In this document: piece after piece, positions 9,059 through 62,435 of the stretch | Numbering within the stretch: the first letter of the stretch is position 1 | Layout: the number at the start of each line of letters is the position of its first letter | From: Neelides folsomi | Lineage: Eukaryota > Arthropoda > Collembola > Neelipleona > Neelidae | Direction: 5' to 3' | Length of the DNA: 64,000 nucleotides | Assembly (NCBI GenBank): GCA_034687125.1 | Contig: JAQGBZ010000237.1 | Location: forward strand, 1-64,000 | The notes under the pieces: generated by a model | Databases searched by the model: none | Told to the model about the DNA's origin: nothing | Seen by the model: only the letters and a program-made list of their open reading frames with translations | Position numbers and translations under genes: made by a program

Positions 9059-12000
9059 TCATTTGTAAGGATAAATGTTAGGAACGTAATTGATCATATT
9101 TTCCAAAACACTCGTTCCGATTTTGAGCGTCGAGAGGGAAATTTGATTTGGGCAAAGAACGGTGGGCGTAAAAACGGAGCTCAAATTGAAAGCGTTCATT
9201 TTATTCTTTTCGCTCATTTCAGCCACACGATGGAGATGCTGAAGAAGGAATTTTAAAACAAGTTCATTGGCGGGTGGAAGTTTCCTCAAGTTCTTTTTCA
9301 AAGTCTCCAAACTCACAACACCTGAACAAAAAACAAAAGCTGTTAATTACCAATTAATTACCTTTAGACCTTTGGGTTCCTTTGTTTGCACCGTTTGTTT
9401 ACTCAACTCCTTTATTCATTTTTCAATTGTCCTTCATTCAAGTGTTTAATCATTATAATGAGAAGCTAATTAAATATTTAAAGTTAAATTAATCAATCAT
9501 TGTTTACTTTGAGTTAATAATTATAAATTGTTGAATAAATAAATCTATAGTTTATAATTATACTATAGTTAATAAAAACTTTATTAAAGTTCAATGGCTC
9601 ATTATAACTTTCAAGAATAAGTATACCATACAATATTGCTTCAATGGTTAAAGTTGGTTAAAGACGGTTAAAGATGGCATGTACATTAAAGTTTTATTTA
9701 CAAGTGAGTTATAAAATGTTATTAAAAGAAATTTGACTCGTCTGTTTGTTATGTCTGGAGGGTTGTAGGTGTGATGGGATTTGTGTAAGTTGTTAAATGG
9801 AACTTCCTTTGTTTAAACAACTCACCATTGACAGTGAGAAATCTCTGAAACACTTCTGGGCTGATGAGCGGAGAAGGAAGAAGGCGCAAATATAATTTAA
9901 CAACTCCACACATTGAATGGATATCTGCATGGGAGCTCAAATCACTTTCATCACGATCTATTAAAATTAAATTAGTAAATCTCAATTAAATTAGTAAATC
10001 TCAATTAAATTAAATTAATTAATCTTAATTAAATTAACTAATTTCAATTAATTAATCTTAATTAAATTAACTAATTTCAATTAATTAATCTTAATTAAAT
10101 TAACTAATTTCAATTAATTAAAATTAATTCAATTAATAAAAGTAAACTGATTCAATTAATTAAAGTAAACTGAAATTGATTAAAATCAATGTAAAAAGTC
10201 TTAATTTTGGATTTACTGTTATTAAAATCTTACCATTTTCTAAATAAGTCTTAAGCCTTTCGATTAACTCTCTTGATCCAGAAACCCTGTAAATCCCTTC
10301 AAGTTGCAATCCGCGGAGTTCAATTTCCTTTATGCATTTGACGAGAACAAATGGAATTTTCCCTCCGCCGGCCTTCACCATTTTCCGAAGATCACAAGTG
10401 AAGATTTCTTTGATCAATTCAATCTTCGGTAAACATTCGCCCAACACTTTTTCTTCACAAAGTTCATGAACGCTCAATGTACAATCTAAACAACAATCAA
10501 AATAATAAATATAATTCGAATTACCAAAATGAAAAACGCCATTTTTGAATTATTAAAAATTTAAAAATAAAAAATACAATGTAAATCTTTATAGTTGAAG
10601 ATTCCACTCCGAGAAAAATATAAAAGAAAAATAAAAACTAAAAATCCTGATGTCGGTAAAGGGAAGATTAAAAAGGAAAATGATAAGAATAAAAAAAGGA
10701 AAAGGATTGATCCGATTGATCAAAGTGAAGATAAAAAAAGATTGATGAATTTCCTACCTTTACATTGAAGACCTTGACTAGACAAGCCCCATAGGAAATT
10801 CTGACAGATTTGACATCTCGACAGCCCTTCGAAGGTGTGGACTTCAAATGAATGCAACTTCAACTCACAAACATTCCGACGCTCCTGTCAATAAACAAAA
10901 ATTAATTGAAATTTACCATAAAACCCAAGCCGATTCATTTCGACTTCATTTCATTTTCATTCAACTTCATTTCATTTTCATTCAACTTCATTTCGCTTCA
11001 TTTCCTTTCATTTCACTTCATCGTCTTCATCGCACATCGTTTTTATCTTCTTCTAACAATAAAAAAGTTCTTCTGACAATAAAAAATCAACCTTTGACCT
11101 ACCTATCTTAAATTAATACAGTAAAATTCCTCTTAAGAGATTTTCAAAGCCACCGCTTTGGATTTCATGTCAAATAAATAACAATCACTAATTCAATTGA
11201 AATCAGAACAATTGGAATTGGATTCAATTCAATTCAATATTAAATATCCTTCAAATTAATAAAGGCTCATTGGAATCAAAAGGCTTTAAATCAAAATCCT
11301 TTTTATCCTTCCGATCATCATAAAAAAGGTCAAAGCTAAAAATTCCCTCATTGATTTTCCCTATCAATTTCTCTTCTTTAACAACTTCAACTTAACTTCA
11401 ATTGGAAGTTCTCTTTAAACCTCCGGTCCGCTTTAAACTTCTTCTTTAAACCTCCGCATTAAACTTCGGCTTAAATCTTACGATTTAAATCTCGGCTGTA
11501 AACCTTTTGCATTAAACCATTGCTTTAAATAGACAATGAAAAAAATTTGGAATCTTTTCCAAAAGAATTTGGGTTACAGACGAAGCACAAAAAATAATTC
11601 ATGCTGGTTTGGATTTCCTTCACACTTAAAAATCCAGTAGGAGTTTTTTTTCCTTTTGAGCAAATCCACTCCCGGCACAGTTGGAGGCCCAAAAACAATT
11701 AAACTCAAGCAACTTCCTTTTGAATTGTAATTAACTTGTAAATCAAACTCAAAATTAATTAATTTCACAACTCAGGTGAAAAAACTCACGAAATTGAATT
11801 TAATAAAAAAATGTTCTTAAAAGGCTTTTAAAAATGCATTTTTATAGTTAAGCCCGCTCTAGAATTTTAAAAATCCCGCTCTTAAATTTTATATTTTAGT
11901 TTTATTAATTATATAGCTAAATTAATTAAAGTTAAAGTTTAATATTTAAAGTGATTATTTTATTAATGTTAAAAGTTAAGTTTACCATTGAGCTTCTCGA

Positions 12001-15000
12001 TAAAGTTGAAATTGAAGGTGACGGAGAATTCCGATGACTTCCATTGTTGGCCCTACAGCTGCCAGATGTTCTCATTAAGGTCAAAGTTCCCCCGAGTCCA
12101 TTTGACCCTCCGACCCCATTGGAATGATGATATTCGGTCAGGTCGACCATGAGGTCAATATAAGAGCCGGCCTTTTGGTCCAAGTACAAAGTGACGAGTC
12201 CTTCTTGGACAAGTTCCTTCAAGTTTTCAAATCCTTTGTCTCGTCCTCCCACGTAGAACAAACCGTCGTCAGAGGAGACGATAAAATTCTTCACACTTCC
12301 GTTAAACCTTTGATCAACACAACAACACAGTGAACTTCCCATATTTGTCAAATCACGTCCTTTCCTAATTAACCATTAAAATCCTTCATAAAATCCCCCG
12401 TAAAATCCCTTACATTAAATTAACAGTTAAATTCACAAACAGGCGCGAAACTCGTCGTTAAATCCTAAATCCAAAACACCCAAAATCCAAACAACCAAAA
12501 TCCAACAGTTAAATCCCCAAAATCTCAAATTACGGAAATTAAACCAAAGACAACAAACTTCAAACTCGCACGTTATAAATTAAACACCAAAATTAAACAC
12601 CGAAATTTAACATTAAATCTAACATTAACTAAATTCACTTTCCCTTTATACCAACATTAAATTTCCCAACTAACTTTAAATTCCCCAACCCCAACCAACT
12701 TCCCATTAAATCATTAAACCAAAGTTTAAATCTCATAATAAATCTCGCACTAAAACTCATCTAAAATTTGACTAAAATCAGCCATAAAATTTAAATCTAT
12801 AATCACAAAAGTTCAAGTCTCAAATAACGTCAATAAAATCAAAAGATTATTATAATATATAAATATATTTCCTATACATATTAAATCTCTCCTGTGAGAC
12901 TTCATATGGTATAAATAACATAACATACTGTTAAATATAACAATAAGTTTTGTATCATATTCAAAATATATTTCCTTATAATTCCCATATTCAGAGTTTC
13001 AAACACGAATATCATTCGGAATATGTGTCAAGTCAAAATTGTCAAATAAGCGCAATAAACCACAAAGTTGGAAATTATGGAAATTTCCTTATTGGGCCAT
13101 AAAAACCACAAAAGTAAAATCCACTAATTTTTCCATGATAAGAAATTGTTAAGGAAATTGGTGATTCGAATGGCCCAAATGAGTCAAATGAAGTCGAAAT
13201 GAATCGTTTAAGTGAGCCGATGACGCAAAAGAACGATTTTCATATCTCGATGAGGATTTTGGTGACTGAGGTTAAGAAACCTCCAAAAGACTCATCCACA
13301 TGGAGAAGAAAAATATCCCGGGGTTTCCTCATCCAAAACATTGCCATATTTGGGCAAATCTCCTTCAGCTTCAAATCAACAACTCAAAAACATAATATCA
13401 AATCATATATCAAATCTAATATAAAATATTACCTTACATACCTACATATACCTGATACATGTACACAATACATATACCCTATACTTTATGTAAATACCTT
13501 CAATCTTTTCTATATTATGACTTTAAGAAATCTCTCCAGACTCCCTTATAGGATAAATTACTATATGACTTTATTTATCTGATCAACATCACAATGGTTT
13601 TTGTATCTCCATTTAAAGTCATCTCCTCACCTTTGCCTATAAACCTTACATTAACTCTCCCATTAGCTCAAACAACTCCAAGCAATTGAACTGTGCATTT
13701 GGTCATTCTCCCTCATTAGTTAATTTTTTACAGCCGGTTTATATTTTTTCCAGGCGCCGGTTTTAAAAACTCTCTTTTTCTATCTCATTGCCAGTGCATG
13801 TAATTCCATAATGAATCAATATTAATTTCAAGGACAGGCCCAATTTATTCATAGCCTTTTTCAATGCACGAGAGAAGCATTTCCCTCCTTGGGATTTAAC
13901 AAGTTAGGAGCAGTTTGGAGAAAATAATAAAACCATATAAATATAAGTATTGTATTTGAATATTTATATGTATATTTAACATACCTTTATTACCCTTGCA
14001 TATTGATATGGGATTACTCACATAGACCTATATAAATCTACTGTAGGTATTATATTAGTATAAGTAAATATACAAAGTTATATGTAAGGTAATATACATA
14101 TAAATATGTATTTGTATTTATTACCATACTTGACTTTATTTCAATTCAAGTTGAAGAACAAGAGTTGAATTTCGTGTAGTTATTAAAATCCACTAAGGAT
14201 ATCCCAGGGTATGTATTTACATTATTTACATGTCTTTGGTTGTCTTTCCTTTGAGCTCTTTGGTTGTTGGATTGAGTGAAGGATTCTGATTACGCATAGT
14301 TAATTAGCCGAACACGAGGAGAATCAAAACTCTCCCAACATCACGTTCAGAATAAGAAACGGGAATTGAAAAACCTTGGGCAGATTAAATTCCCCTCATA
14401 TGAATTTCATGAATTTCGTGTTAATGTTAAAAAGGTCATCCAAATCCAGTTGACATAAAGGCCAAATCTTGCATTTAATTTAAAATCAATCATTTCCAAT
14501 ATTTATCATTTCCATATTGAATATAAAATAGCAATAAATAACAAATTAATATAAACTTATTGGTATAATGTTAAATAAATCTAAAATTAATTGATCAAGA
14601 AAAAATGAGGGAATAAATTGAATAAGAAATGAAATGAATAAAATTGAGATTGTTAATAAAATTGAGTAAGATTTGGTTTAAATAGGTTCAATTCATTTTG
14701 ATGAGGAAATGAAGAATCAAAGTAAAGATAAATATGGCAATGTATGAAATTGAAACGAATGAACTTTTATAAATTTCTATCAATTTCAATTTCTTATCAA
14801 CATCGCACATCCTCGACCACTCACATGAATTACATGTTTATTAAATATGAAATTGACACAACGTGAGGATTTATTTAACATTTATTTAACCTACTTTTAT
14901 CTCTCACACTTGTCAAACAATTACACTCAACGAGATATGAAAAGAATCTAATTTATGATATTTAACCTTTTCAAAAGGCCAAATGTAATTTACCAGTTTC

Positions 15001-30400: not shown

Positions 30401-33400
30401 CTACATGTTGCGGTAAGAACCAAAAAACCACCTCAAGTCACAAAATGTCACAGAAAGCTCAAAAGAGAATTATTTATGACTTTCTTCAATAATTCCTTAC
30501 TCGATTCATTCTCCACTTTGAAAGAACCATTTTAAAGAATTTAAATTTACTTCCTTTTTTCAATAATTTAAATTTACCGCTTTAAATTTACTCAATCTTT
30601 CTATTATTTAAATTCATAATAAAAAGTTAATGCATAATTACAATTTTGCAATTTTACAAAGAATCATTATAATTAATAGTCGTATTTTAATTTGGTGCGC
30701 AAAAGTGGCTTTGGATTAATAAATTGCGTCATCTCTTAATATTTAATGTCATTAGGAGGAAAAGGGGATTTAGTCTATTTAGAGAAGTAACAGGTGAAGT
30801 GATGCATAAAAGGATTAAAAAACTTTTATTTTTCACGTTTACCTTCGCCTGTTATTTTCTATTTGAGTGGGCAAATAAAGTTGGAAATTGGAATAACTTA
30901 AATTTTACCATTTCTAAATTCATTTGTTTTACAATAGTTTAGATTATTATTTAGTACATTTGATGATAAGAGAATTAAAGCATTTTTAATTTGACCCTTT
31001 CTTCATAAATCACTTATATTTTTATTAATAATCAAAATTTATATGATACATTACATACCAACTATATTTAAATATATACAAGTATGGTATACTTGGTTTG
31101 GCAATTGAAATAGCAAAACTTAATAAAATTATTTGAAACAATTAAAGAAATTGTAATTTTTATTTATAAAATATATTCTTATTTTTAATGACAGCATTGT
31201 TTTTAAGGCCAATTTGGAAATAGCCATAAAAGTTTATTTATTCAATGCCGTATTAATATAAATAGTCCGGATAAAATATGTCCGGTTCTGGTGCTGTTGT
31301 GGTTGTTTTTAATTGTTTGAAAATAATGGAAATTGACACTTTGGATTACTTGTATACGTAATCTCGTTGTAAGTTTTTTTTACACTTTCCATTCCAATCC
31401 AATCTTTTGAAATTAAAGAATAGTAATTTTGTAAAATACTACTTAAATCTTCATTTACAACTCCACTCATAAAATGAATAAATGTTTCATAATTGAGTTT
31501 TTCTTTGTAACGCCTGTTGTTGCTATCTTCTTTTTTCAAGTATTTATTTACTAAAGCAAAATATTTCTTCAGTCCTTTTGATCCTGAACAATTGTAAATT
31601 GGGAAAAATAAATCTCGAAACCAGTAAATTTTATAGTATCGTCTCAAAACGGCCTTTTTATAAAACTCTTCAGCTTCTTTTTCCATACCAAGTTGATTGA
31701 GAATATCATAGTGAAATATTCCCGCAAATTTGCTAATTTTTTCAAATTTGTTATCAAACCTGTATTCTTTTTTATCCCATATATGATTTGTAGCGTCGTG
31801 TTGCATCCCATTGAACATTTGTTCAACCAATTGACTCATTTCATTCGAAATCCATTCCCATGCTATAGGATTTTTCATCTCCCAAAATGATGAATCATTG
31901 TGACCACAATCAAAGATAGTTCTATTTTGATGAGAATTACTATAATAAACCGAAGAATGACATCCATGAAATCCACCCGAATGCAAAATTATATAAAGAA
32001 AATTTCCTCTTGGATGTCTAAAATCTCCATATGTATTTTTCGCGACTTTCCATGCTTTGCTTGCAAAGTCAATAATCCAATCAAATGATAAATTTTTATT
32101 AAAGTTTTGGCCAAAGTAAATTGCAAGATCTTTATTAGAGAATATTTTATTGACAGTTTTATTATGCTCGTGCCAATTTTCTTGAATTGAAATTTCAGGT
32201 TTAATAATTTCCCAAGGTTGAGTAATCTAAAAGTTAAAATGTCTCAAGTTAATTGCAAAATTATTAAAATGGCAATTTTAATATTTTTTATACAAGTCAT
32301 TAATTATCAGTTACAAATATAAAACGATGTTAAATATGTTTATGATAATTATATGATTTATATTACATCGGCATATTTTTCATTAGTTGTTATTAAAATA
32401 TCATCCAATTCAATTATTCCCGAAAATAAATGATTAAAAAATTCGCAATTAACAATTATTGAGCAAATGGATTCAATTCTGGTGGTATTTTCATCTATAC
32501 ATCCTTTAAATTGTTGAATTCTGTTAATAAATAATGTGAAGCATTTTCTATTCGAATCATAATTTAGTCTTATTAGATTTGGTAATTTATTTCGAAAATT
32601 TGAGAATATTTTAAAGTCATTTTGTGTTAAATTTGCATCATTCAACTTTACGATTGTTAAATTGTTTCCATATCCAAGAATCATTAATTTGAATATTTGT
32701 GTTTCATTTAATCCTAGTAACCCGAGTGTAATATTTCCTTGATCTTGTATTTTTAAAGTAAATTGCAAACTTAATTTATCCCTTGTGATTGGAAAACATG
32801 GAAAGTTTGCGATTAATTTTTCATTTTCTTTATTTTTACAACAATGAAATGATATTCCCGTTTGAAATGTAGAATTCAACAAATTAAATTTTTCATAAGC
32901 ATAAGAAGTGTTTTTCAACGTTTTCCATGTATTTAAAAATGTGCGATTTTGATCATTTTCAAAATCCTCTTCAAACGCAATTTGTTTCAATGGTTTATAA
33001 TAACAGTTGAGTTCAGAAAGATAATCGTTATGAGTTTCTTCAAATTCGTGTTCAGAACAATTCAATTTGTTATTTTCTTTAATAACAACATTAATTTTTC
33101 CTTCAAATTCCATTTCGCATATAATACTTGAAATGGTTTTGTTTTCAATCTCCTTGTTTAAATAAAATAATTCATTTAAAAATAATTTTATGATAAAAAT
33201 AATAGTGATTATATTAAATGTGATTGTAATGAAAATGATTAATTTTTACTTGTGAAGTTTCTTCTTTTTTTTCAATTTTCGACTTTTTAGATTTACTTTC
33301 TACTATTTTAGTTTTATTGCTTAGATATACAAATTATAAGGGATTTTATTAAAAAAATTTAAGATTTATTATTATATATTTTAATAATTAATATTAATTA

Positions 33401-36400
33401 CGTTTCTTCAACTTTAGCGCTTAGAATTTGATAAACTTCGGAGAAAGAATTTACGTTGTTGAGATCGTCAGCTGAGATTGTCTGTTAAAAGCTTAATTAT
33501 TATTGGATTATCATTCTGAAAATAAAAATATTAAAATGAAATATTATTTTGTTAATACAAGAATGAATTCTTGTTCCGTAACTAAAATCCAATTTACTAA
33601 AGCAAAGAAATATACGAAATTGATAAAAATGTTCATTATAAATTATTTTCATTAGGACTTGTATTAAATTGAATATTAATATCCTCATTAATGAGGAACT
33701 AATAAATATAAATATTAACCAATAATAAATCAATAACCAATATGATTAATTGTTACTTCCTATCAATTGTGGTAGATAATAAATTTTTTTAAGTATATAT
33801 TTGTATAAAAAGAACTGCGTATATTGTAGAGTACAATTTTAAATTAAAGCAAGAATTGTAGTTAATATTTGTATTTAGTAATCTCGTTATATAATTATTG
33901 ATTATATTTACATCAGCGTATTGTTCACTTGTTGTGATTAATATATTATCCAATTCAATTTATTCTACTGACAATTGATTTGAAAATTGGTGATGAAAAG
34001 AAATTACACAAATGGAGTCAAAAATCAAAATGTTTTCTTTGGCACATGAATTGAATTGTACATTTCTGTAAATTGACAGCTTTAAACATTTTCTATTTGG
34101 ATTAAAATTTAGACGAATTAAAATTATTATTTGACAATGGGTTTACAAAATATTCCTCATCTGTTAAAATTTTATCATTCAATTGCATACTACCACGAAC
34201 TACTGTACCATTGACATCCTCATTTCCATTCATTCTAAACTTTAACATTTGCCTTTGATTTGGCCCAAGTATACCAGTAACAACATTTCCTGAATTATGT
34301 AAATCTATCGTAAATTGTAAATATAAATTTTTTTTCTCGGATTAGAAAACACAGAAATTCTATAATTGTTTTATTCTCAATTTCTTTAGTGTAATACAAT
34401 GAAGTTCCACTTTGAATTGTTGAACTGCTCAAAAGATTGAATTTAGAATGAATAATTTTATTTCCAAGTATTTTCCAACAATCAAAAAAGAATCTTTTTT
34501 GATGATTTTCAAAATCTTCTACGATAAATACGTCTTCTAATACGATTAGGTTTGGTGGTTTACAAGAGCAGTTGAATTCCTCAAGATAATTGTTATGAGT
34601 TTCTTTAAATTCAATTTCAGTACAACACGGTTTCGAATTTTTAATAGTTTCTGACTTATGTTTAGTTATTTTCTTCTTCAATTTATAATATCTTAGCTTT
34701 AATTTGTCAGTTTGTTCTTTACTATTAATAAATTCATATAAATATTATATAAACCATTAAAAAAATACTTTTGTTCACATTTAACAGTTACATTATTTAA
34801 TTTGTTAATAAATCAATTACTTTTGAATTGGAATTTAATTTTTCGAGTGAGTCAAAATCCTGTAAAATTTCAATTATTAAATAATTTTATTAATATAAGT
34901 AAGGCAATTATATTATTAAACAATTTACAAGTTACAATAATTAACTCTTGTCCTGAAATTAAAATGAAATTTATTTTGCATATGAAAAGAACTAAGTAGA
35001 TAAAATTATGCATAATAAGAAATTTGCGTTGAGCGCAATATTAAAATCAAAAATTTTCTTTAATTGGAAATTTCTTTTCTTCAATAAATGAGATTACAAT
35101 GAGTTAAATTTTTTCATTATATGAATTCGTATTGCTTTAATTGAATTTTCTATCAAATGTGGTTAACAAATTAACAGCTATTATTAGAATTTATAAATTT
35201 CTAATCTAACCATTGCCATCAATTAAAGTATCGTTTATTTTAAGTATTTTGTTTCATGTACATGCGGATATGCATTAATAATAAATAACGATTTATATAA
35301 TATCTTGGTTTAATTATGGTTGTTTTAATTCAATAAATTTAAATGACTTAAAGCGAATCAAATTGATTAAAATAATATTTTTTTAACTGGAAAATGACAA
35401 TGAAACATTTCACATTGGATTACTTGAATATGAAAAGTTACTAATCAATAATATTTTAAAATTTACATTTAGGGTTTCCTGTAAAACTTAAATTATGCAC
35501 ATTTTTATTATAATAAACAAATTTTTGATCTGGATTTAAATTTAAGACTCTGTAAAATGTATCTGTCAAATTTTCGTTAACCACTACACTCCAAAAATAA
35601 AGAAAATCATGCAATTGTATTCCATTGATGTTAAGAGTTTCAAAACTGTTAAATATTTTAAAATGTTCGCTAACTAAAGTAAAAAATTTTTTGAGCCCCA
35701 TTGATCCAGTACAATTGTAAATTGGGAAATACCAATCGCGAAACCAATAATACAAAGTACCGTAAGAGTACGTAGTTACATCGATCGATCGTTCATAAAA
35801 TTCTGCGGACTCATTTTTCATTCCAAGTTGAATAAGAATATCATAATTAATGATTTCCCAAAATTTTGTTTCCACATAAACCAACCTAGGATTTCCTTTT
35901 TGATTATAGTAGAAACTTATATATAAACTTGAAATTCCATTAAAATTAAAAATATTTTCAACCATTTTGCTCATTCCATGAGAAATATATTTCAAAAAAA
36001 TGGGATTTTTTATTAACAAAAGTGAGGAATTTTTAATTTCGCAATTAAGTATGGGTTCTCGATAATAATATCCATATTTATAGGCAATAAAAGTATTACA
36101 TAATTGAAATTCACCTGAAGATAAAAAAATGCTAAGGAAATTTTCACTTGGATGTTTAAGATCTCTGTACGTATTTTTGGTCACTGTCCATGCTTTGCTT
36201 GCAAAGTCAATAATCCATTGATAAGATGAATTTGTCATCAATCCTTTTTCTAAATATATTGCGATGTCTTCATTAGAAGGAATCTTTGTAAAGTTTTGTA
36301 TACTTTCTGGGATTTTCTTGTTTGATGATTCTAGTTCTATAAATTTTTCAGTGATTACCTCTTTCAGTGATTGAAATTCAGTGATCTATTATTTAAATTA

Positions 36401-39400
36401 ATACTTTAATGTATTTTAGTTATTTTATAATTAAATAATTACCTTAGCGTATTTTTCACTTGTTATTAAAATATTATCCATTTCAATTTTTTCTTCTAAA
36501 AATTCTTTTGAAAATTTATGAGAAAAAGAAATTGAACAAATCGATTTAAAAATCAAAATATTTTCTTTAGCACATGATTTAAATTGTACAACACTTTCAA
36601 TAAATAGCGTTAAACATTTTCTATTGTTATCAAAATTGAGACGAATTAAATATGGGGAATCATTCTTGTAAAAGATTTTATAATTATATTTTTCATTTGA
36701 CAATGAGTTTTCAAAATATTCCTTATCTGTTAAATTTTTATCATTCAATTGTACAAAACCATAGGGTTCTGTGCCATTTAAATCATTCCCACTATCATTT
36801 ATATTTCATTTTCATTTCTTTAAGAATTGCCTTTGATTTGACCCAAATAAAAGAATGTCAAGATTTCCCAAATTGAAATTATGTAAACGAATTAAGAATT
36901 GTAAATATATATTTTTGTCATTAATTGGAAAACAGGGAAATTCCATCAATATTGTTTTATTTTCAATATCTTTAGTGTAATGCAAAGAATTTCCATGTTG
37001 AAATGTTGAACGTCGCAAAGGATCAATAATATAAGGAACAATTTCATTTCCAACTATTTTCCAACAATTTAAAAGAGTTATTTTTTGTTGGTTTTCAAAA
37101 TCTTGTTCAAATGCAATTTGGTTCAATGGTTTGCATAAGCAATTGAGTTTATAATTATAAAGATTATTTATACGAGTATCTTCAAATTCATCTGAACAGC
37201 ACCGTTCGGAATTTTTAAAAGCTTCAGATTGATTTTCAGTTATTTCTTTCTTCAATTTGCAATACCTCAGCTTGTTAAGCCGTTCTTGTTCTTGTTTACT
37301 GTTAATAAATTTATATTATTATAAAAAAATTAAAAGATAAATTTTTAATGTCAATATCTCATAATTGTATTATTTAATATTTATTAATCAATTACATTTT
37401 CCCCACAGAAAGATTTAGAAGTTCAAATACTTCAGAATTGGAATTTAATTTTTCGAGTGAGTCAAAATCCTGTAAAATTTTGATTAGTACCTTATTAATC
37501 TTATTAATATAAGTAATACAATAATATAAATTATTAAATATTTTACAAGTTTACAATTATTAAGTCTTGTCCTGAAATTAAAATGAAATTTATTTTGCCA
37601 AATAAAAACATCAAATAGATAAAAATACGCATAATAAAAAATGCTCACAAAGCGTTAGTATAAAAATCAAACTCCCCAATGTTTAACTGGCCAATAAATG
37701 AGAATACTCCGAGCTAAATTTTTCTTTATATAAATTCATCTTAATTTTAGAATATTCCCTATCAAATGAGGTTAACCAATTAAAAGTCATATGTTAATAA
37801 TAATTTATGATCTGATCTCAACATGGCCATCAATTAATGTTTTGTTTATTTTAACTATCTTGTTTCATGTGCATATAATGTAAAATTATTCCAATGTTAT
37901 TTAAAGTTAAAGGATAAGATCTAAAAATCTGGTTTTAGCTTATAAATACAAATTCTATGATTTTTATGTCAAAAATCACATTTGGAAAAGTTTGGAAAAA
38001 GAAATCAAGATTTGCTGTTGAAGTGTTGATGCGTAAAATGTAATTTATTTTTTGTTTTCTTTGACTTAGGTTGAAAGTGACATTTTCCTGTATGATGGAC
38101 CTCTCCAAGTTTCCGATGGACTCCCAAGTTTGCTCCATGGAAGTGGCAAGTTGTAAGTTGCTTTTTCATTCCCAACCTTCCTTCCATTTGAGACATAAAT
38201 TGAGAGAAATTTCCGAAACCCCTATTGTCAAACTTCGACCTTTTCCCTTTTATCTTCCCACTTAGGGCAAATTTGTCCATAAAGGGAAGGATAAGTGAAG
38301 CATTGAATATTCCAAATCCTTTCAACTTCCCCTTCCCCACGAACACACTTAAAATCAGACAAATAGCTAAAACACATTTCACCTTCGATTTCCATTGTCA
38401 ACCCAAATTTGTCACAAGTCAATGCTTTCCTTCCCTTTTTACATAATGTAAATACTTTTAACTCTTTTCCTTCTTTACTAAATTGGTTAAAATAAATCCT
38501 GAAAGCAAAGTTAAACAAATCCAAAATCCAATATGAACATATATTATTTATTTACACATAATTATATATATATTTTTTTTTGGTTTTTCAAAATAACCTA
38601 CCTATATAAAAAAGCAAGTAACTTATGGCTATGGCCCACCCTGTACATAAAATAAAATGTAGTTTATACTTAAGTTTGTTCTATGTATAGTAACTAGATA
38701 TAATTTAATTGTATTTCGCAGAATTTATTATTTTACTTTTGGCAGTATTTAGAATTGGGATGCCAAATTGGTATATTTTTCAAAAAGGAGGGAACTTTAA
38801 AAAGTTTTAATTTTTAATTTTAATTTAATTAAAATATAAATTGGGTATCTTCATTTCATTATTTAACTTTCTGCCTGATGGGGAACTCGGGATGTGTTTG
38901 AGCGAGGTTTGAAATAAAGGAAGGTTTTGTGTATAAATTGGAGTGAATTCCCAAAGTCCCCGATCATTCCTTTCCTCTTTTCACTCCCTAATTGAGTCTT
39001 CCTTCAATTAAAATTTATCTTATTGGCCTTTACGACCAAATGAACTCGGTTTAATTCCTCACGCTTCAATCCGACTCACACTTTCGAATAATTCCCGCCT
39101 TTAATCATTTTACTATATAACTACAATATACGAAGATTACGCAATGGAAAGATGAAGGGAATTTCAAGAGAAGACATTCACTTTTATATCTAAAGCATAA
39201 TGAGCCAGAAAATGAGAAAATGAAATTGTCAATTAAACATTTAAATAAATAGGGAATTTATAATGAGACTGAAATAAAATAAAGTGAAGCTTAGAAGACT
39301 TATAGAACCTTTATCTGAAATTGTTCTTCTTATCAGATTCAAATCCTCAACGTTGAAAAATGTTTTGTTGTAAAGTGAAAGATCTGAATAAGCTTTTAAA

Positions 39401-53900: not shown

Positions 53901-56900
53901 CATTTGATCCAAAGTTACATCCCGACCATTTTGATGGTTGTAATTTCTTGGGTTTCATTTTGGATGGATGTCACTTCCGTTCCGGGGCGGGTTACACTTG
54001 GAGTTACAACGCTGCTTACCGTTTCTTCAAAAGCTACAAGTAAGAAAGATTTTAATTATTATTATATAATTAAGTTAATTACAAATGTAATTATAAGGAT
54101 TCCTTAAAAATAATCCTCCTTTATAATAAACCTCTATTAAGATTAAACCACTATAATTTTAAGTATTAAAGTATTCGTCTTTTAAATATTAGAACTTTAT
54201 AAATTCATCTTTATTTAATAATCCTTCCCTATTAAACTTTCACTCTTTTCATTAAATACCTTTCAATTAATTAACGGACTTTCACCTCATTAAAAGACTT
54301 AGGCATAATTCCTCTTTGGTATTGAATTAAATCGGGCTTTCATCTTTTATAATGTTTTAATTCCTGTGAAACCGCCATTGGATTATTCCACCATTAAAAC
54401 CACTTTGGCATTTAAAATCTTCCTTTCAACTTCCAACTTCACAAATGGAGTTAAAATCCGATCTCTTTCAATTAATTACAAAATAGGAATTATTAATTTA
54501 TGAAATAACTTTGCAAGTGCTTTATCTTTCATCTTTAAGTAAAATTTATACTTTCATAATGCATTAATTTAACCAAACGATTATTAATTCACCTTACAAA
54601 ATTCGATATAATTGAAAAATGAAAAAGTTTACATTTAATAATTCTCATGTTCTGGGTGTCATCAGTCTCATCAGATTGCGGTTTTTATTTCGTGTCTTCT
54701 TGTGTGTTTTTTCAAATTTCCCCTTTGTCGACTTGAATGTTTACAAAAAATGCATTTGTATGGTTTTTCACCGGTGTGTCTTGTAATGTGGATATATAAA
54801 TTTCTAATCTGTATAAATGAATGTCCACAAAGTAAGCATTTATAGACTTTTTCTCCTATGTGCTTTCTAATGTGACGACTTAGAAGGAGAGCAAAGTGCA
54901 AAGTTGAGGTCGAGGAGAAAAACGAAAAGAAGGAAAATGATGATGATTTTCACTTTAAGTGGTTTATTGAGATTTGGGAGAAAATGAGGTGTTTTACAGA
55001 TAGAAATTGACAAGAGAATAATGAGAGAATCGATATTTGACATATAGCAAAACAATTATAAACAAGCAATAGTTTTACATAGATACTCGGCGATACAGTG
55101 ATCATCTAAATTTCCCTTTTGCCTGAATGACTTTTGACAAATATTGCATTTGTAAGGTTTTTATCCTGTGTGAAATCTTATGTGCTTATTTAAACATCCC
55201 ATTTCTCTGCATGAATATTCGCAAAAATTGCATTTGTGGGGCTTTTCTCCTGTATGAATTCTCTTATGATTGTTTAAACCATCTTTCCTTCCAAAATTGA
55301 ATGAATTTTGACAGATTTTGCACTTGAACGGTTTTAGTCTTGTGTGAGCTCTAATATGAATATCTAAGTTGCTTCTAAAACTAAAATATTTTTTACAAAA
55401 TAAACAATATAAATTCATTTTAATTCTAATGATCTTCAATGGTGGTTTCTTTAACTATTTTGAGATTAATTGATAAATTTTGTAAATTATCAATGAAAAT
55501 TATTTTACAGAGATTACCATAATAACTTTTAATTGAACATATTACAATATTTGGTTTAAAAATGTAATTAACACATTGTTCAATAGTATAATTAAAGGTT
55601 CTATTAATTAACTTGAATCGGTCACTACTTTTTGTAAATTACAAAATCATACTTAAAATTTTTGTTAGTACTAAATAATTTTTAGATGAATATGATTTGA
55701 TTACCCAATGCCTTTTTACAAACTGGGTAAATGTTCACATATATTTTTAATTCCTAAATGCCCATTACTTAAGAGGATCAACTTAACCTAAAATATTGTA
55801 CAGACAAAATGTATTAAAAGGCTAGCTTATAGCTTATAGCTTGATGAGTATTTTTACACATTTTCCATTTGTACCCTTTCCTTTGTCCAAAGGATTAACG
55901 AATAGATTGGAAATTCCAGCTTTGGCACATTTTAAAATATGGAATTATTTTCATAAATATGGAATATTATAGAAACATCAAAAATGTATCGAAAATCAAA
56001 ATCAAAAATTTTAATTAATTACAATTAATCTAATGTAGGATATTTTATTTTAAATATATTTTATCCAATTACATATTATTATGTAATGTACATATACAAA
56101 TACTATTTATAAGTATATGATTAATTTACATTTATGTTTCTCTTATTCTTTGCTTCTTCTCAAATTAGGGTTTACTTCGTGTCTTTTCATGTGATTTTTC
56201 TAAGTTACCTTTTGGATACTTGAATATTTACAAAAAATACATTCGGTTGGTTTTAGGACTATGTAGATTATTTATCTATTTAATATTCTATCTAACATTA
56301 ATTAGTATTATAGGTATTACAGACTACAGATATCAAGTTATACTAATGTCCTCGAACTTTTTTTTAATTTAACTCTACAGCTTCTGAATAAAAATTTCTA
56401 TTGAATATTCTATACAACTATAAATTAATTATCAATTAGTACTTATAGAGTTAAAAAAGGTTGAACATGTCACCATAGGTAACCGAACATTTTTGTAATT
56501 TTAGCATTAAAAATTATAAGAGGTTAGGATGAAATCACCATGAGTGTGTTAAAGCTATATATTTTAATTATGTTAATCTAAATAAAGTTACAAAGACCAA
56601 ATGCATTGATTCGGCTACTCTAGAGTATATTGGTAACTTCTTTTTTGTTATTAAACTAATCATAAAAAGTTATAATTATATTATTTCAAATATAATAATG
56701 AGGAGCGCGAAAAGTAATGAAATCAAATATAATATAAAAGTTGTATATAAAGGTTGAAGGGGAAAACTAATTACATTTAATCTAGTAATATTAGGGGACG
56801 TAAATGAGATTAAATTCCTTTTAATTATATAATCTTCATAAATATTTCTTTTCCCATTCTTCAAAAATTTGTTTTCCCAAAAATTTAAAATTCCGAATTC

Positions 56901-59900
56901 CTTCATGAAATAAATATTTCTTGGAAAAATATCTGATATAATGTTTCTATTAAATGCCCAAGGATTTGTTACAATAAATTTCATGTCTAAGGCTTTGTTA
57001 TTAATTACAAAAATATTATTAAATGTTTTTAAAATATTTCCAATAATATTAATAGAAAATTCCGACCCAATGTAAATAAAATTTGATGGAATTGTTTCAT
57101 TATATAGGTTTTGTTTAAATCTAAAATCTAGCACAAAATTACTTAAATCGTAAAATCCTTCTTTGGGTTGTAAATAAACTGTTTTATTGTATAAATTTAT
57201 AATTTCAGTTGAATGAAAGGGTAAATTTTCAATTAAATTTTTAAACATACTTGATGTTTGATTAATGTTTATTGTAATACTATCTTGCGTATAAACAAAA
57301 TACTTGTAATTTACAATTTGTTCAAATGAATTTGGAACACTTGGAGGAATTTCTGTAGATAAACCGGTAAACAAACCTCCTTTATATAAATTACTAAGAA
57401 TCATTACAAATATTAGCCATAAACCAACACAATAAGCAAAACATTTATTTTTAATTATTGTTAATGTTAAACCTTTACCCTGATCAAAAAATGATAAAAT
57501 AATTAACGCGTACAAATTTCCTACTTCAATTAAAACAGATTTAAAATTCATTTTGTGTAATTTAAGATAGATTATTGCTAAAACAAGGCAGATATTTATT
57601 GGAGAAATTACAGTTAAAATCCACATTGTTGTATTAAATGGCTCAATTAGAGTTAACCAATTATACTTTAAATAGTTTTTATTTACAATTGTAATAAAAT
57701 TAAAATTGTCTACACTTATTCCAGCCGGACAAATAGAATGTCTATCAAGACTTTCAATTGAATAATATTGTTTGAAATTTTCAGTAAGATAAACACAATA
57801 ATTTTCCTATATAATCCCAATTCTTATTATCATCATAGAAATGAATAGTCAAATTATATTTCTTAAGTATTTCTATCGTTCCGCACCATTTGAAATAAAT
57901 AGCAAATAATTTACTACAAGTTTGAATGGAAAAATCCATATAGGTTCCTACAATTATCGATGCTTCTTTAAAATTTTTATTTATACTTCTAATAAATAAT
58001 TTTAATTTTATAATATTCAAATCGTTTGGTAACGGCAAAATGGTTTGATGATATTCAACATAAAATCGGGAAATTTTATCTAAACATGTTGGGCAAAAAA
58101 CGTTTATAATAGAAGAAAGTGAATTTGATTCACAGATAAGGATGATTGAATTTGAACTAATATTGAAATTCTTATTATAATGATACAAAAATAATGCTGG
58201 AGTGTTTTTTAATTTTTTTAAACTGAATATGGTGTAAGTAGGATTTATATACAAATATAAACGTTTAATTCTAACCTTAAACATTATTTCAGATAAAAAT
58301 TCAATTTTTTCATCAATTTCATTTGAAAACGGGAAAATAAAAAATATAGCTCGAGAGCTTATGAATTTTAATTGATAAAATGAACTTGGGCCAAACAATA
58401 AAGGCAAATTATAACTCAAATTTTTAAGATTATCTTCTTTGTGAAATAAATTATTTTCAATAGTTTGAATAATAAATGGAGATCCAAATTCATTTAAATA
58501 AATTCTATATAAATTTGAAAGAGTTGAGCCTTCTTCGTTGTTTTTCCATTGACCAACTAAAATGTTCAGACATGGATGGAAAAGTTCAAAATTTTTAGAA
58601 ACGTTGTTGAAATTGCTTTTCTTTAACGATTTGTTCAAATGAATCAAACCATTCAAGCCGTTTAAATATGATAAAATTACAAAAATATAACTTAAAATTA
58701 AACCCATTATTTAAATTAAACGTTTAAAGGCATATATTATTAAAATATCATGTAGGTAGGTATATATGTTTTTACATGATTTATAAAAAATACTTAAATT
58801 CCCTGACACTGCTTTTATTTGAAACCAATTATAATTTTAATAAAGTTTAATAGAATTATTAATGAAATATCATAGTATATTAATGCATTTATAATGGTAT
58901 CTTTTAGTTGATAAATAAGGTTTTTATAATAAAATATCCATACAAGTATTACTTCGTTATAATTTATTTGGAATTCGCTTTATTTATCAATGTTCTTTTT
59001 CAATATCCGAAACAAGTAATTGGGAAATATTATTATACTAACGAGTTCCCTCTTTTCGTGTAATTTCAGTTGAATTAATTATTCATATGAGATTTAAACG
59101 ATCAACTCACTCACTGTTGTCAACTAACAAGTGGACAATTTCATTTACAACTTGTGTTAAATATTGAAGCATTTTAATATTTTATGTATTTATGTATAAT
59201 GTATGAAATATTATAAATTAAAAATCCTTAGAGAGGTATGATGAATTGAATAGTTTTGTAAGTTAAAAAGGAATGCATACTTATAATATAAAAGCATTTT
59301 TCCCATCTTGTCTTGTCTTGTTAAACAACTTAGAAATACAATTAAAAGTTCAAAAGAAAATGTTGGAAAGAGTATAAGATAATTTCAGTTTTCAAAAAAA
59401 CAACATTTTAAAGGGAAAGAAATAAATGTGGAAGGTTTTAAAAAGAATTGAGTTTAAATGAAGATTCCCTTGAGGAATTTCACTTTAACGCATTCATCAT
59501 GAACTTGAACTATTTTTATTAATTAATATAAAATATTTTTTATTGTTAAAATACGTCTATCCATATTGGATCCATGGTTCATATAAGAAACATGGTTCAA
59601 CATGGTGCAACTCATGGTTCATATAAGAAACATGGTTCAACATGGTGCAACTCATGGTTCAACATGGTGCGACCCATGGTTCATATAAGAAACATGGTTC
59701 AACATGGTGCGACCTATGGTTCACATGGTGCGACTCATGGTTCAACATGGTGCGACCCATGGTTCATATAAGAAACATGGTTCAACATGGTGCGACCTAT
59801 GGTTCACATGGTGTAAAGTGGTGCGGTTTCCGTGTCCATGGTTCACATGGAGAGAATCATGGTGTTTTATGGTTCGTTTTTAGGAATTTTTCCATGGTTC

Positions 59901-62435
59901 GGCGACCCATGGTTTTGCATGGTTTTCCATGGTGAAACCATAGTTCATGGTTTCTGACATATGAAAATTAACATTAAAAGAACCATGGTTCTGGGAAAAA
60001 AACCATGGTGCTGAATGGAAAACCATGGAAAACCCATGGTTTGCAGACTAGCCGAATGCTAGCCTCTCTCCTGTTTGAATTCTCATTGGATTATTTAAAC
60101 TTCCGTTTTGTGTGCATGATAATTGACAAATATTGCATTTGAAGGGTTTTTCCCCTGTGAATTCTTATGTGATAATTTGAATCTTTAGATTGTTTGCAGG
60201 AATATTCGCAAATATTACATTTGTGAGGTTTTTCTTTGATGTGAATTCTCATATGAATGTTAATACTATCTTTCCTCATAAATGAATTTTGGCAAATGTT
60301 GCACTTGAACCGTTTTTCTCGTGAATGAGATCTCATGTATCTAATGTAACTTCCATTATATGTAAATGCATAATCACAAATATTGCATTTAAAGGGTTTT
60401 CCCCCTGTATGGGTTCTAATATGTGTATCTAAGCTACTTCTCATACTAAAATTCTTTTTACAAAATAAACATTTTAAATTCATCTTAATTTTAACTTTAT
60501 ATTAGATGACTTTTTTCTAGTATAAATGGTAAATAATTAAATAATTTTCAAATATCTAACAAGCATAATCCACTCTATCATTTAATTTTACAAATTTCAA
60601 TTTAACTAAATAAGAATTGAACAAATCTTGAAAAAACTACAAAATAAACTTAATAGGGTAAGTAATGAATAACAGACAAATTATGATTACCTATTGACTT
60701 ATTACAAGCACACGATGTTCATTTTTAACTTCAAATAACTATAATTTAAGAGGATCAACTTACCCTAAATTTATTAGGCATTATAAATTATTCAGTAAAT
60801 TAATATTTTTACACATTTTCTTTCTGTACTTTGATCCTTTTTATCTACACCTCCCTAAATCCCCTCAGAAAAGGATTATTAAATAAAAGAATTTCCAGTT
60901 TGGTCTCAACACTTTATTACTTTTATCTAAAATTAAAAATAACTTAAAAATACTGAGAATTTAATTTATTATATTTAATCCAAATTTAAAATTAAGTTAA
61001 AAGATTTAAGTAAAAGTAAAGAAGTAGGTAAATTAAATGGCGTCGTTAAAGTGAGGCGTGTAGAAAGAGAATTAGAGTTGAATCCCATTTAATCAAATGG
61101 AGGGAATTTAAGCAAAAATCCTTTTCAGACATTCAGGAGAATTTGGCCCAATCAAGCTACGTGAAGGCAATTGACGTTTGGATGGGGACATGCACCGGTA
61201 AGCTCTCAAACCCAATTCCCGCCCATTCACGCGCCAAAGTACAAACTTTGTTTAAACGGCCGTTCGTCAATTGTTATTTCTTTTCAGGATTCGTTTTCCT
61301 CGCTCTGCTGGAATTCACCGTTGTGGTAAAAACATTTGTCAATACAGAGTGACCTAGAAGTTGCTTTCTTTTTTAAATAAACAATCTCAAAAGTGAGAGC
61401 AACTTATGTCCCACCCTGTATTTCTCTTTAATTTACTTTATCACAATACATAGTGCATAGCTACAATGTACAGGGTGGGCCATAAGTATCTTTTTTTAAA
61501 TAAACAAAAAATAAAGATACTTATGGCCCGCCCTGTATAGTTGAAATCTATAATTAGAATTGTATTAGATTAGACTAAAACATGCGATATTGGCCATTTA
61601 ATTTTTTAATTAAATCAGCGGCAAATTTTCAAATTTTTGAAAAAATGTCTAAATGTTAATTTTAATAGAACTATTTGTGGCGTCGCGAAAGTTGTTCCGA
61701 AAAGCGTCGAAGTCATGAAAGTTTGGCCAAAGAAATTGAAGGTCTCGAAGGTTCGCCGTCCGGTTCCAACACTCTTCCTGAGGTTCAATTGAAGGGCAAT
61801 GGGGAAAGTTTCACGGTTTGGTTTCATTCCATTATTGTGGGTTTTTAGGTGAAGGAGGAGGAAAATCATTTTGAGCTGAGACATCGGAAGTGCGGGGAAA
61901 GCGGGCTGGAAGGATTTGGCGATCTTCTTCAACTCAAACCTGCTGACTCGCGGGCCAAAGCAAGAAATATTGATGAGACCTGCAGATACGGTAAATAAAA
62001 AAATCCCCCACTGCAGAATGCATAGAAAATGCAAAAACTCCCCTTTTTTCCCTCACGCACACATGTCACATTTATTACGTCGAGATAGACAAACCATTCA
62101 CATTTATATTTTATACCATTCAACAATTCAGATAAAAAATATAAAAATTCTAACTTTTCCAAATATAACAAATATAGATATATACATACCATACATATGA
62201 TACATAATATGTACTATACATACGTAGCGTATATTTACGCATCTTATTTGTTTTTTATTAGATGTTTAGATTGTGTTGACTTTGATATAAATATTATGTA
62301 TTTAATGGTCATTTTCAAGTTTTTTGTGGGAACATTTTTTATCATTAAAAATAATGAATATTTTTGTTCACAGCATTTCCAGCAGCTTTTGCTGTTTTCA
62401 ACTTGATCTATTGGCCATTTTATTTGTGCACGTAA
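44906..62435 (+). CDS. Cys-loop ligand-gated chloride channel B (GluCl/GlyR-like)
   Basis: Fourteen exons: 44906-44979, 50014-50102, 50292-50365, 51728-51951, 52359-52412, 52524-52552, 52734-52813, 53003-53054, 53848-54039, 61129-61197, 61288-61325, 61669-61782, 61849-61990 and 62374-62435, for 430 aa. The signal peptide (MILLKSSASVYLWIFFFYW) is followed by ILDELLKNGYDRRATPTNHL. The Cys-loop is Cys161-Cys175, split by an intron that channel A lacks; the second Cys pair is Cys219/Cys230. M1 contains ILMVVISWVSFW, M2 follows Pro271-Gly272-Arg273, M3 has YVKAIDVWMG and M4 ends FNLIYWPFYLCT. The extracellular core is highly similar to channel A while the M3-M4 loops diverge. The two may form homomers or join one pentamer. 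The GAG|GTTCAA donor ending exon 12 is weak and gives a 66-bp intron. Intron 8 (54040-61128) carries opposite-strand genes. Confidence 0.92.
46591..46720. repeat. CAGATTTTTCTT-type repeat
   Basis: Four to five imperfect copies of (C/T)AGATTTTTCTT in a strongly T-rich plus strand within channel B intron 1. Confidence 0.55.
46762..46776. repeat. short CTAAC (TTAGG-type) run
   Basis: Three tandem CTAAC units, the complement of the arthropod telomere repeat TTAGG, inside channel B intron 1. Confidence 0.6.
47215..47400. repeat. ATACACCAAAAT / ATATATAAAA repeat
   Basis: Repeated ATACACCAAAATA motifs change into pure TATATAAAATA. It is low-complexity intronic DNA; the frames through it are repeat-derived. 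Confidence 0.65.
48885..49160. repeat. CCGAATATATG / GAACCGAATCCGGG degenerate array
   Basis: Multiple ATATGAACCGAATCCGGG-like units follow one another, with a nearby inverted pair AACCCGGGTTT and AATCGGGTT. There is no coding content. Repeated CCGG/GGGTT cores in otherwise AT-rich DNA make it stand out. Confidence 0.6.
50205..50222. repeat. interstitial TTAGG telomere-type repeat
   Basis: Three perfect TTAGG units followed by TTA, in channel B intron 2. TTAGG is the ancestral arthropod telomere repeat; short internal runs can arise during double-strand break repair. Confidence 0.75.
54671..55439 (-). pseudogene. C2H2 zinc-finger gene copy 1, broken
   Basis: It is read on the minus strand inside channel B intron 8. 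From 55439 the frame gives finger 1 (CLFCKKYFSFRSNLDIHIRAH region), finger 2 with two extra residues between Cys and His, and finger 3. A TAA then replaces the Glu codon of the TGEKP linker (near 55160). A fourth finger start follows in the same frame and is lost. After about 180 bp of non-finger sequence, 54901-54671 encodes a half finger and two good fingers (CLLCGHSF.., CIFCKHSS..) ending RRHEIKTAI. This is either a decayed multi-finger gene with an insertion, or a gene with an intron plus a nonsense change. The fingers would bind DNA if expressed. Confidence 0.65.
55080..55930. repeat. segmental duplication, copy 1 (zinc-finger plus 5' flank)
   Basis: The zinc-finger segment and about 490 bp upstream of it match 60060-60905 in order and orientation. 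Shared blocks outside the coding part include GATTACC..ATG, TTAAGAGGATCAACTTA.CCTAAA, ATTTTTACACATTTTC and AAAGGATTA...TTTCCAG. Confidence 0.7.
56145..56270 (-). pseudogene. zinc-finger 3' end relic
   Basis: The minus strand reads a decayed version of the last finger of 54671-54901: a KPTECIFCKYSS-like block, then a stop, then KNHMKRHEVNPN. About 40 codons remain. It shows that at least three copies of this zinc-finger gene once lay in the intron. Confidence 0.55.
56676..58707 (-). pseudogene. ionotropic-receptor-like (IR) chemoreceptor, single exon, one frameshift
   Basis: It is an intronless reading frame on the minus strand in channel B intron 8. The ATG at 58707 opens a signal peptide (MGLILSYIFVILSYLNGL). 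About 300 residues of ligand-domain-like sequence follow. The frame shifts once near 57785-57815; reading then resumes (RHSICPAGISVDNF) and runs to 56676. The second part has the IR plan: M1 (WILTVISPINICLVLAIIYL), a pore-like stretch, M2 (CVGLWLIFVMILSNLYKGGL), a second ligand lobe (IPPSVPNSFEQI) and M3 (LYTTFILYLISLLFALLIII). Divergent IRs in protostomes are non-selective cation channels for odour and taste. The total is about 677 codons. Because both sides of the break are otherwise clean, the frameshift may be recent or a base-calling error, so the gene may be live. Confidence 0.65.
59568..60050. repeat. CATGGTTCAACATGGTGC tandem repeat block
   Basis: Tandem, partly higher-order repeats built from ACATGGTTCAACATGGTGC and GACTCATGGTTCATATAAG units occupy 59568-59800 and then break up into scattered CCATGG palindromes to 60050. 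Plus-strand ORFs 59574-59771 and 59642-59935 are repeat translations (MVQHGATHGSYKKHGSTW). The block directly abuts zinc-finger copy 2 and shares the CATGGT core with 553-790. Confidence 0.9.
60060..60483 (-). pseudogene. C2H2 zinc-finger gene copy 2, frameshifted
   Basis: From the ATG at 60483 the frame encodes four fingers. Finger 1 (CLFCKKNFSMRSSLDTHIRTH region) is canonical. In finger 2 the first His is Tyr (YIRYMRSH), so zinc binding is doubtful. Fingers 3 and 4 are canonical. After HIRIH the frame shifts by one base at about 60155. The other frame continues a linker and a fifth degenerate finger (CNICQLSC..) that runs into the CATGGT repeat. Linkers are also eroded (HSREKRFK, HIKEKPHK). 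It is probably a decaying paralogue of 54671-55439, although a 130-aa four-finger protein could still be made. Confidence 0.6.
60060..60905. repeat. segmental duplication, copy 2 (zinc-finger plus 5' flank)
   Basis: Partner of 55080-55930. Homology covers the zinc-finger frame and its upstream flank to a common TTTCCAG end. The inner edge meets the CATGGT block. Confidence 0.7.
61342..61422. mobile_element. hairpin MITE, degenerate left arm
   Basis: It lies in channel B intron 10. The right arm GCAACTTATGTCCCACCCTGT pairs with a left arm ACAGAGTGACCTAGAAGTTGC that carries several changes. It is separated by 46 bp from the next copy. Confidence 0.7.
61469..61537. mobile_element. hairpin MITE, near-perfect palindrome
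   Basis: A 69-bp element in channel B intron 10. Left arm TACAGGGTGGGCCATAAGTA and right arm ending GGCCCGCCCTGTA pair almost completely around a short A/T loop. It is the best-preserved member of the family here. Confidence 0.8.

Follow-up and report, generated by a model that had tools for sequence, protein, structure and literature searches.

A gene for a Cys-loop ligand-gated channel in the springtail Neelides folsomi has an intron of 7.66 kb, and within it, on the opposite (minus) strand, lie three related gene copies that we designate N1, N2 and N3. They are part of the window analysed here, bases 1–64000 of contig C237 (GenBank JAQGBZ010000237.1), and the genome searched comprises 75.1 Mb in 840 contigs. 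Its mitochondrial contig, C742, has the gene order usual in arthropods, and the encoded COI, 93 % identical to its best match and about 80–82 % identical to many Collembola, speaks for a springtail and not for a nematode, which was considered at first. We consider it fairly probable that N1 encodes a secreted glycoprotein in which a local beta-sandwich (lectin-like) domain is fused to a bacterial-type gluzincin domain without a zinc site. N1 has a spliced open frame, its last exon is homologous to a bacterial family and has a confidently predicted fold, and the motif of that family has been lost; the sequence further suggests that the product is secreted, and we infer that its action is one of binding rather than cleavage.

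The N1 gene and its host intron

The host intron is delimited as follows.

30413..38069, plus strand: intron of the Cys-loop ligand-gated channel gene (Pfam match, splice sites, receptor matches)

The exon encoding the ligand-binding domain ends at 30412 and is followed by the donor GTAAG, and the next exon follows an AG at 38069 in matching phase; the channel exon matches PF02931 (E 2.1e-12) and also glycine/GABA-A receptors. Antisense coding sequence within the intron spans 31309–37632, and the three longest frames without a stop in the region 30801–38200 measure 309, 305 and 295 amino acids, compared with a longest random frame of 174 amino acids (median 90) in 500 first-order Markov draws. 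A preliminary description of this DNA had proposed a multi-copy, divergent family nested antisense in the channel intron, and the splice sites of the channel exons, the PF02931 match and the minus-strand frames of three copies in one intron all agree with it. The features of N1 are listed below.

33559..33636, minus strand: exon 1, start codon and signal-peptide-like stretch (spliced model, donor GTATTA; hydropathy)
33402..33481, minus strand: exon 2, short linker resembling that of N3 (AG/GT boundaries)
33250..33295, minus strand: exon 3, short Lys/Glu-rich linker (AG/GT boundaries)
32367..33152, minus strand: exon 4, domain 1, a Cys-containing beta-sandwich by a low-confidence model (galectin/ConA-like)
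31309..32226, minus strand: exon 5, bacterial-type gluzincin-fold pseudopeptidase domain, 305 amino acids, with NEMSQ in place of HExxH
31237..31242, minus strand: AATAAA hexamer, possible polyadenylation signal 66 nt past the stop codon (a word common in AT-rich DNA)

Joined by GT-AG introns in consistent phase, the five exons of N1 (31309–33636) give 636 codons including the stop, i.e. a protein of 635 amino acids. Hydropathy over 19 residues exceeds 1.6 only in windows starting at residues 1–3, with no further hydrophobic stretch, and the protein contains 15 sequons as against 8.1 in shuffled sequences, a count reached in 14 of 2000 shuffles. This excess, together with the lack of a second hydrophobic stretch, fits a secreted glycoprotein, and as judged from its sequence the N1 product is probably a secreted, glycosylated, non-catalytic chimera of lectin-like and pseudopeptidase domains. 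The secreted two-domain protein originally proposed is upheld as probable, N1 having a signal-peptide-like start, a domain 1 that ends, as had been noted, in LDDILI, and the last-exon domain. Bacterial contamination is an unlikely source of N1, because the gene has introns and sits within the channel gene.

The last-exon domain

Searches of Pfam, NCBIfam and the PDB with single exons of N1 and N3 returned nothing credible (no match or chance-level matches), and two profiles compared with Pfam, NCBIfam and PDB sequences likewise gave nothing or chance-level matches only. A profile search based on five springtail rows, in which 2240 candidates of limited length were examined at E ≤ 1e-3, identified 116 relatives (best E 9.8e-69). 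A taxon is named for 20 of these, in every case a bacterium (by our own assignment 16 Bacteroidota, three Myxococcota and one Nostoc), and another Pfam domain is listed in 31 of the 116, including CBM6, discoidin, ricin and crystallin types. The longest match was 542 amino acids, in line with the length limit; springtail relatives of about 635 amino acids would be missed, so their absence from this search is not evidence. In a genome collection confined to bacteria and archaea, a scan yielded 232 relatives, and the 79 loci kept are mostly from Chitinophaga, Niastella, Mucilaginibacter and Pedobacter, with others from Paenibacillus, Streptomyces, Hyalangium, Cellvibrio and Desmonostoc. When the bacterial protein P0025 was used as query in the springtail genome, N1 was recovered at 1.1e-28 and N3 at 1.9e-9; further relatives of the last exon in the same genome lie on contigs C69, C215 (locus L005) and C334.

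Homology across the domain places the N1 last exon in a bacterial HExxH peptidase-like family, and its predicted structure (predicted local distance difference test, pLDDT, 87.5) is gluzincin-like, with the fold of a gluzincin catalytic domain. The zinc motif, HExxH with a downstream glutamate that from its spacing would be the third zinc ligand, is near-invariant across 115 database relatives. All five springtail copies examined have lost at least one motif position and are broken at differing positions; N1 has lost three of the four, its residues there being N, E, Q and G, and both motif histidines and the downstream glutamate are absent. The last exon of N1 looks like a pseudopeptidase domain of horizontal derivation. 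The preliminary description had regarded the family as unfamiliar and lineage-specific; it is true that no Pfam or NCBIfam match was obtained and that domain 1, as far as searched, is confined to this lineage, but the last exon has kin in a secreted peptidase-like family that is bacterial where named. No match of the whole of N1 to a described family turned up, the queries being exons and not the joined protein.

The damaged copies

Among the three copies N1 alone is intact, and N2 and N3 are damaged. They had been described as tandem copies of the same exon structure, and all three do have exon 1 and some or all of exon 2 in common, but they are not equal, as N2 is without a last exon and domain 1 of N3 contains two stops.

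34936..35013, minus strand: N2 exon 1 (spliced comparison; N2/N3 DNA match)
34798..34859, minus strand: N2 exon 2 remnant, shortened; a stop is reached on straight read-through
33912..34721, minus strand: N2 domain-1 remnant, open only as three pieces in three frames, with no last exon after it
37555..37632, minus strand: N3 exon 1, signal-peptide-like
37396..37469, minus strand: N3 exon 2
36443..37298, minus strand: N3 domain-1 exon with two in-frame TGA stops inside
35456..36385, minus strand: N3 last exon, open, 309 amino acids, pseudopeptidase domain with motif HGMSK

The donor-like site in N2 exon 2 that corresponds to the one used in N3 gives the wrong phase (read by eye). N3 as a whole (35456–37632) has a layout similar to that of N1, and the open pieces of its domain 1 (36812–37298 and 36443–36805) are in the same frame with the two TGA codons between them. 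The DNA of N2 and N3 matches at 71 % along about 1.5 kb, covering 33878–35263; the match begins ahead of exon 1 and runs slightly beyond the domain-1 exon. A partial copy at the end of contig C133 keeps the same exon order: its domain-1 exon is open and is followed by the beginning of a last exon. The homology breaks off some 77 bases before the end of the contig, which fits both a broken copy and a contig cut-off.

The domain 1 family

Relatives of domain 1 are present on at least 15 contigs of the springtail genome. Among 5.8 billion proteins, none of 6848 candidates reached E ≤ 1e-3 in a search that needs shared five-residue words. The predicted model, of low mean pLDDT (46.6), resembles galectin-type sandwiches, and when 11 rows or pieces of domain 1 were searched at E ≤ 10, neither galectin nor legume-lectin profiles matched; membership of the galectins was considered and is not claimed, the model being too poor. 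The domain-1 proteins on C531, C642, C76, C780, C227, C306, C264 and other contigs (L011–L016, L125–L152) have helical-looking N-termini and a single or double sandwich, and several domain-1 matches elsewhere in the genome hold stops.

Selection and phylogeny

Comparison of the N1 and N3 last exons gave an omega of 0.43 (bootstrap 0.27–0.62). In 200 neutral simulations of our own with the same base composition the mean was 0.83 (standard deviation 0.12) and the minimum 0.58; none of the 200 was as low as the observed value, which indicates that the last exon was kept as protein for a part, if not the whole, of the time since the duplication. For seven further pairs of pieces omega was 0.41–0.65, without a simulated control. 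Purifying constraint on N1 and N3 after duplication is suggested by these comparisons.

The tree, built from 60 rows, joins N1 with N3 (100/99), and a branch with support 85/81 (not starred) has these two together with L005 and the C69 copy on the same side. A single clade of the five springtail copies is not rejected (approximately unbiased test, P 0.316). A horizontal origin of the last-exon domain is suggested, most simply as one gain from bacteria followed by duplication, although there may have been several gains.

Comparison with known systems

The bacterial HExxH family (P0001–P0115; e.g. in Chitinophaga, Mucilaginibacter and Stigmatella) is homologous to most of the N1 last exon. Most of ten members read have signal-like N-terminal starts and some have carbohydrate-binding modules; nearly all of the 115 possess HExxH and the downstream glutamate that N1 lacks, whereas N1 has introns and an extra, unrelated N-terminal domain. 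The best preserved relative in the springtail, L005 (C215:52422–55706), is a spliced gene with a signal-peptide-like start, a ricin-B lectin (PF14200, 2.6e-10; PF00652) and the same peptidase-like domain, and N1 has domain 1 in the place of that lectin. L005 retains HEISH, with proline at the presumed third zinc ligand.

N1 may also be compared with the arthropod chimeras produced by horizontal gene transfer (HGT), in which, according to excerpts of the paper describing them, an acquired interval is likewise fused in frame with other sequence, Folsomia candida has the most HGT-chimeras in the set, and multi-species chimeras have a ratio of non-synonymous to synonymous substitution (dN/dS) below 1 (Kapoor et al., 2026; PMC13389597). 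As to a non-metazoan interval, the homologues of the N1 last exon found in the length-limited search and the genome scan are bacterial where named, and the tree singled out neither a donor nor a single origin; as to a metazoan interval in the same frame, domain 1 belongs to a family of the springtail genome for which no outside relative was found. N1 departs from the chimeras of these excerpts in that its partner domain has no outside relative and its acquired domain no active site. The word 'peptidase' is absent from the main text of Kapoor et al. (2026), and that of the genome paper on Folsomia candida is without 'peptidase', 'protease', 'ricin' and 'lectin'; none of the titles and abstract openings retrieved by our literature searches describes the N1 gene family. 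N1 would fit among arthropod HGT chimeras and pseudoenzymes, and what would be new here is the partner domain without known kin and the lost active site.

Three named peptidase families were considered. Peptidase_M60 (PF13402) has no match in the N1 and N3 exons or in eight bacterial members, and in five bacterial genomes holding the family its sole match, in a frame of 1114 amino acids, lies below the cut-off; with no profile match above the curated cut-off, membership was rejected. Compared with the M60-like/enhancin peptidases (PF13402; PMC3267712, excerpts), N1 is without both the motif and the Pfam match. Peptidase family M1 gave no Pfam match, and the resemblance is one of fold only. Basic secretory protein (BSP; PF04450) has an HE..HIV motif region in common with the bacterial family, and a profile comparison (hhalign) with only three BSP rows gave a probability of 64 % and an E of 6.6e-5. 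One UniRef name among the profile-search matches reads 'Basic secretory peptidase'. No Pfam match to PF04450 was found in eight family members, and the BSP profile scores above its cut-off for a neighbouring gene and not for the family gene, so membership was rejected on the profile; BSP would be the nearest named family, and a distant kinship is possible. The family gene of Chitinophaga rupis (L054, L114) is immediately preceded by a gene for a BSP, the two genes lying at 887–1648 and 1830–2786 in L054.

Other features of the window

Two long overlapping frames of 376 and 309 amino acids at 56676–58710 (minus strand) appear by eye to encode an ionotropic-type receptor, with no Pfam match at E ≤ 0.01. 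A RhoGAP domain exon (PF00620, 1.1e-9) is located at 10160–12375 (minus strand), and the frame upstream of it is SH2-like by eye with no Pfam match, perhaps as part of a chimaerin-like gene. A C2H2 zinc-finger exon is located at 60091–60501 (minus strand).

Discussion

A number of observations weigh against the interpretation of N1 as a retained binding protein with a bacterial-type domain. Foldseek gave a best E of 1.6e-3 for the last exon and nothing at 0.001, and the motif alignment is unsure for the C69 and C334 copies. The first domain-1 piece, with an omega of 0.53 and nine of 200 simulations as low, is weaker evidence of constraint; omega also averages past history and, with N2 and N3 broken, N1 may be on the same path. 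No donor lineage was resolved by the 60-row tree, all five springtail copies came together in 0 % of 200 bootstrap trees, and the C334 copy was placed among bacteria beside another long branch, a meeting of long branches that calls for caution. A lectin function for domain 1 is a guess from fold class, based on a poor model.

The path just mentioned leads to an unlikely but by no means negligible alternative, namely that all copies are relics of a captured and duplicated bacterial gene, with N1 the last to break. The missing last exon of N2, the in-frame stops in the N3 domain-1 exon, the long branches and the loss of motif residues in five of five copies of the peptidase domain would all be expected of relics; N1, however, keeps its frame of 635 amino acids across five exons in AT-rich DNA, its last-exon omega of 0.43 is lower than in all 200 neutral simulations, and its sequons are in excess. 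It is improbable that the domain is still an enzyme acting through a rebuilt metal site or other chemistry: N1 is without both histidines and the downstream glutamate and the five copies are broken at differing positions, even though the fold and several non-motif positions (e.g. WFRD..FPIY and HF.SG in N1) are retained and HEISH survives in L005. We give equally little credence to descent of the domain from an ancient animal family that has disappeared from most lineages, an idea to which the long branches, the tree with no clear donor and the length limit of the search (longest match 542 amino acids) lend something, but against which stand the 20 of 20 named matches that are bacterial and the 232 relatives from a genome set that contains bacteria and archaea and no eukaryotes.

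Our working hypothesis for N1 remains, then, that a bacterial secreted peptidase domain was acquired, duplicated and fused to a local sandwich domain, N2 and N3 being decaying sister copies and the C133 copy incomplete. What the preliminary description put forward as a candidate for an undescribed system would be better seen as the fusion of a local domain family with a domain of horizontal derivation whose active site is gone. It is tempting to speculate that the sandwich domain binds a surface glycan while the dead peptidase cleft holds a peptide or glycoprotein ligand, and that N1 may work at the surface of the gut or the body, where a soil dweller meets bacteria that secrete the active enzyme, whether as decoy, inhibitor or recognition molecule. 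More generally, and as a possibility that we put forward tentatively, springtails may have domesticated a bacterial secreted peptidase whose catalysis was lost separately in several paralogues, and by fusion to a lectin-like family may have turned it into binding proteins (receptor, decoy or inhibitor) directed against the source microbes.

Two families come into view with this finding, one of bacterial peptidase-like proteins with no Pfam match and one of springtail sandwich-domain proteins for which no relatives were found. If the hypothesis is correct, a bacterial enzyme domain would have been retained in an animal, with signs of constraint, after loss of the active site in all copies examined, and a horizontally acquired fold would have been exapted for binding in the springtails, a group already known for many acquired genes.
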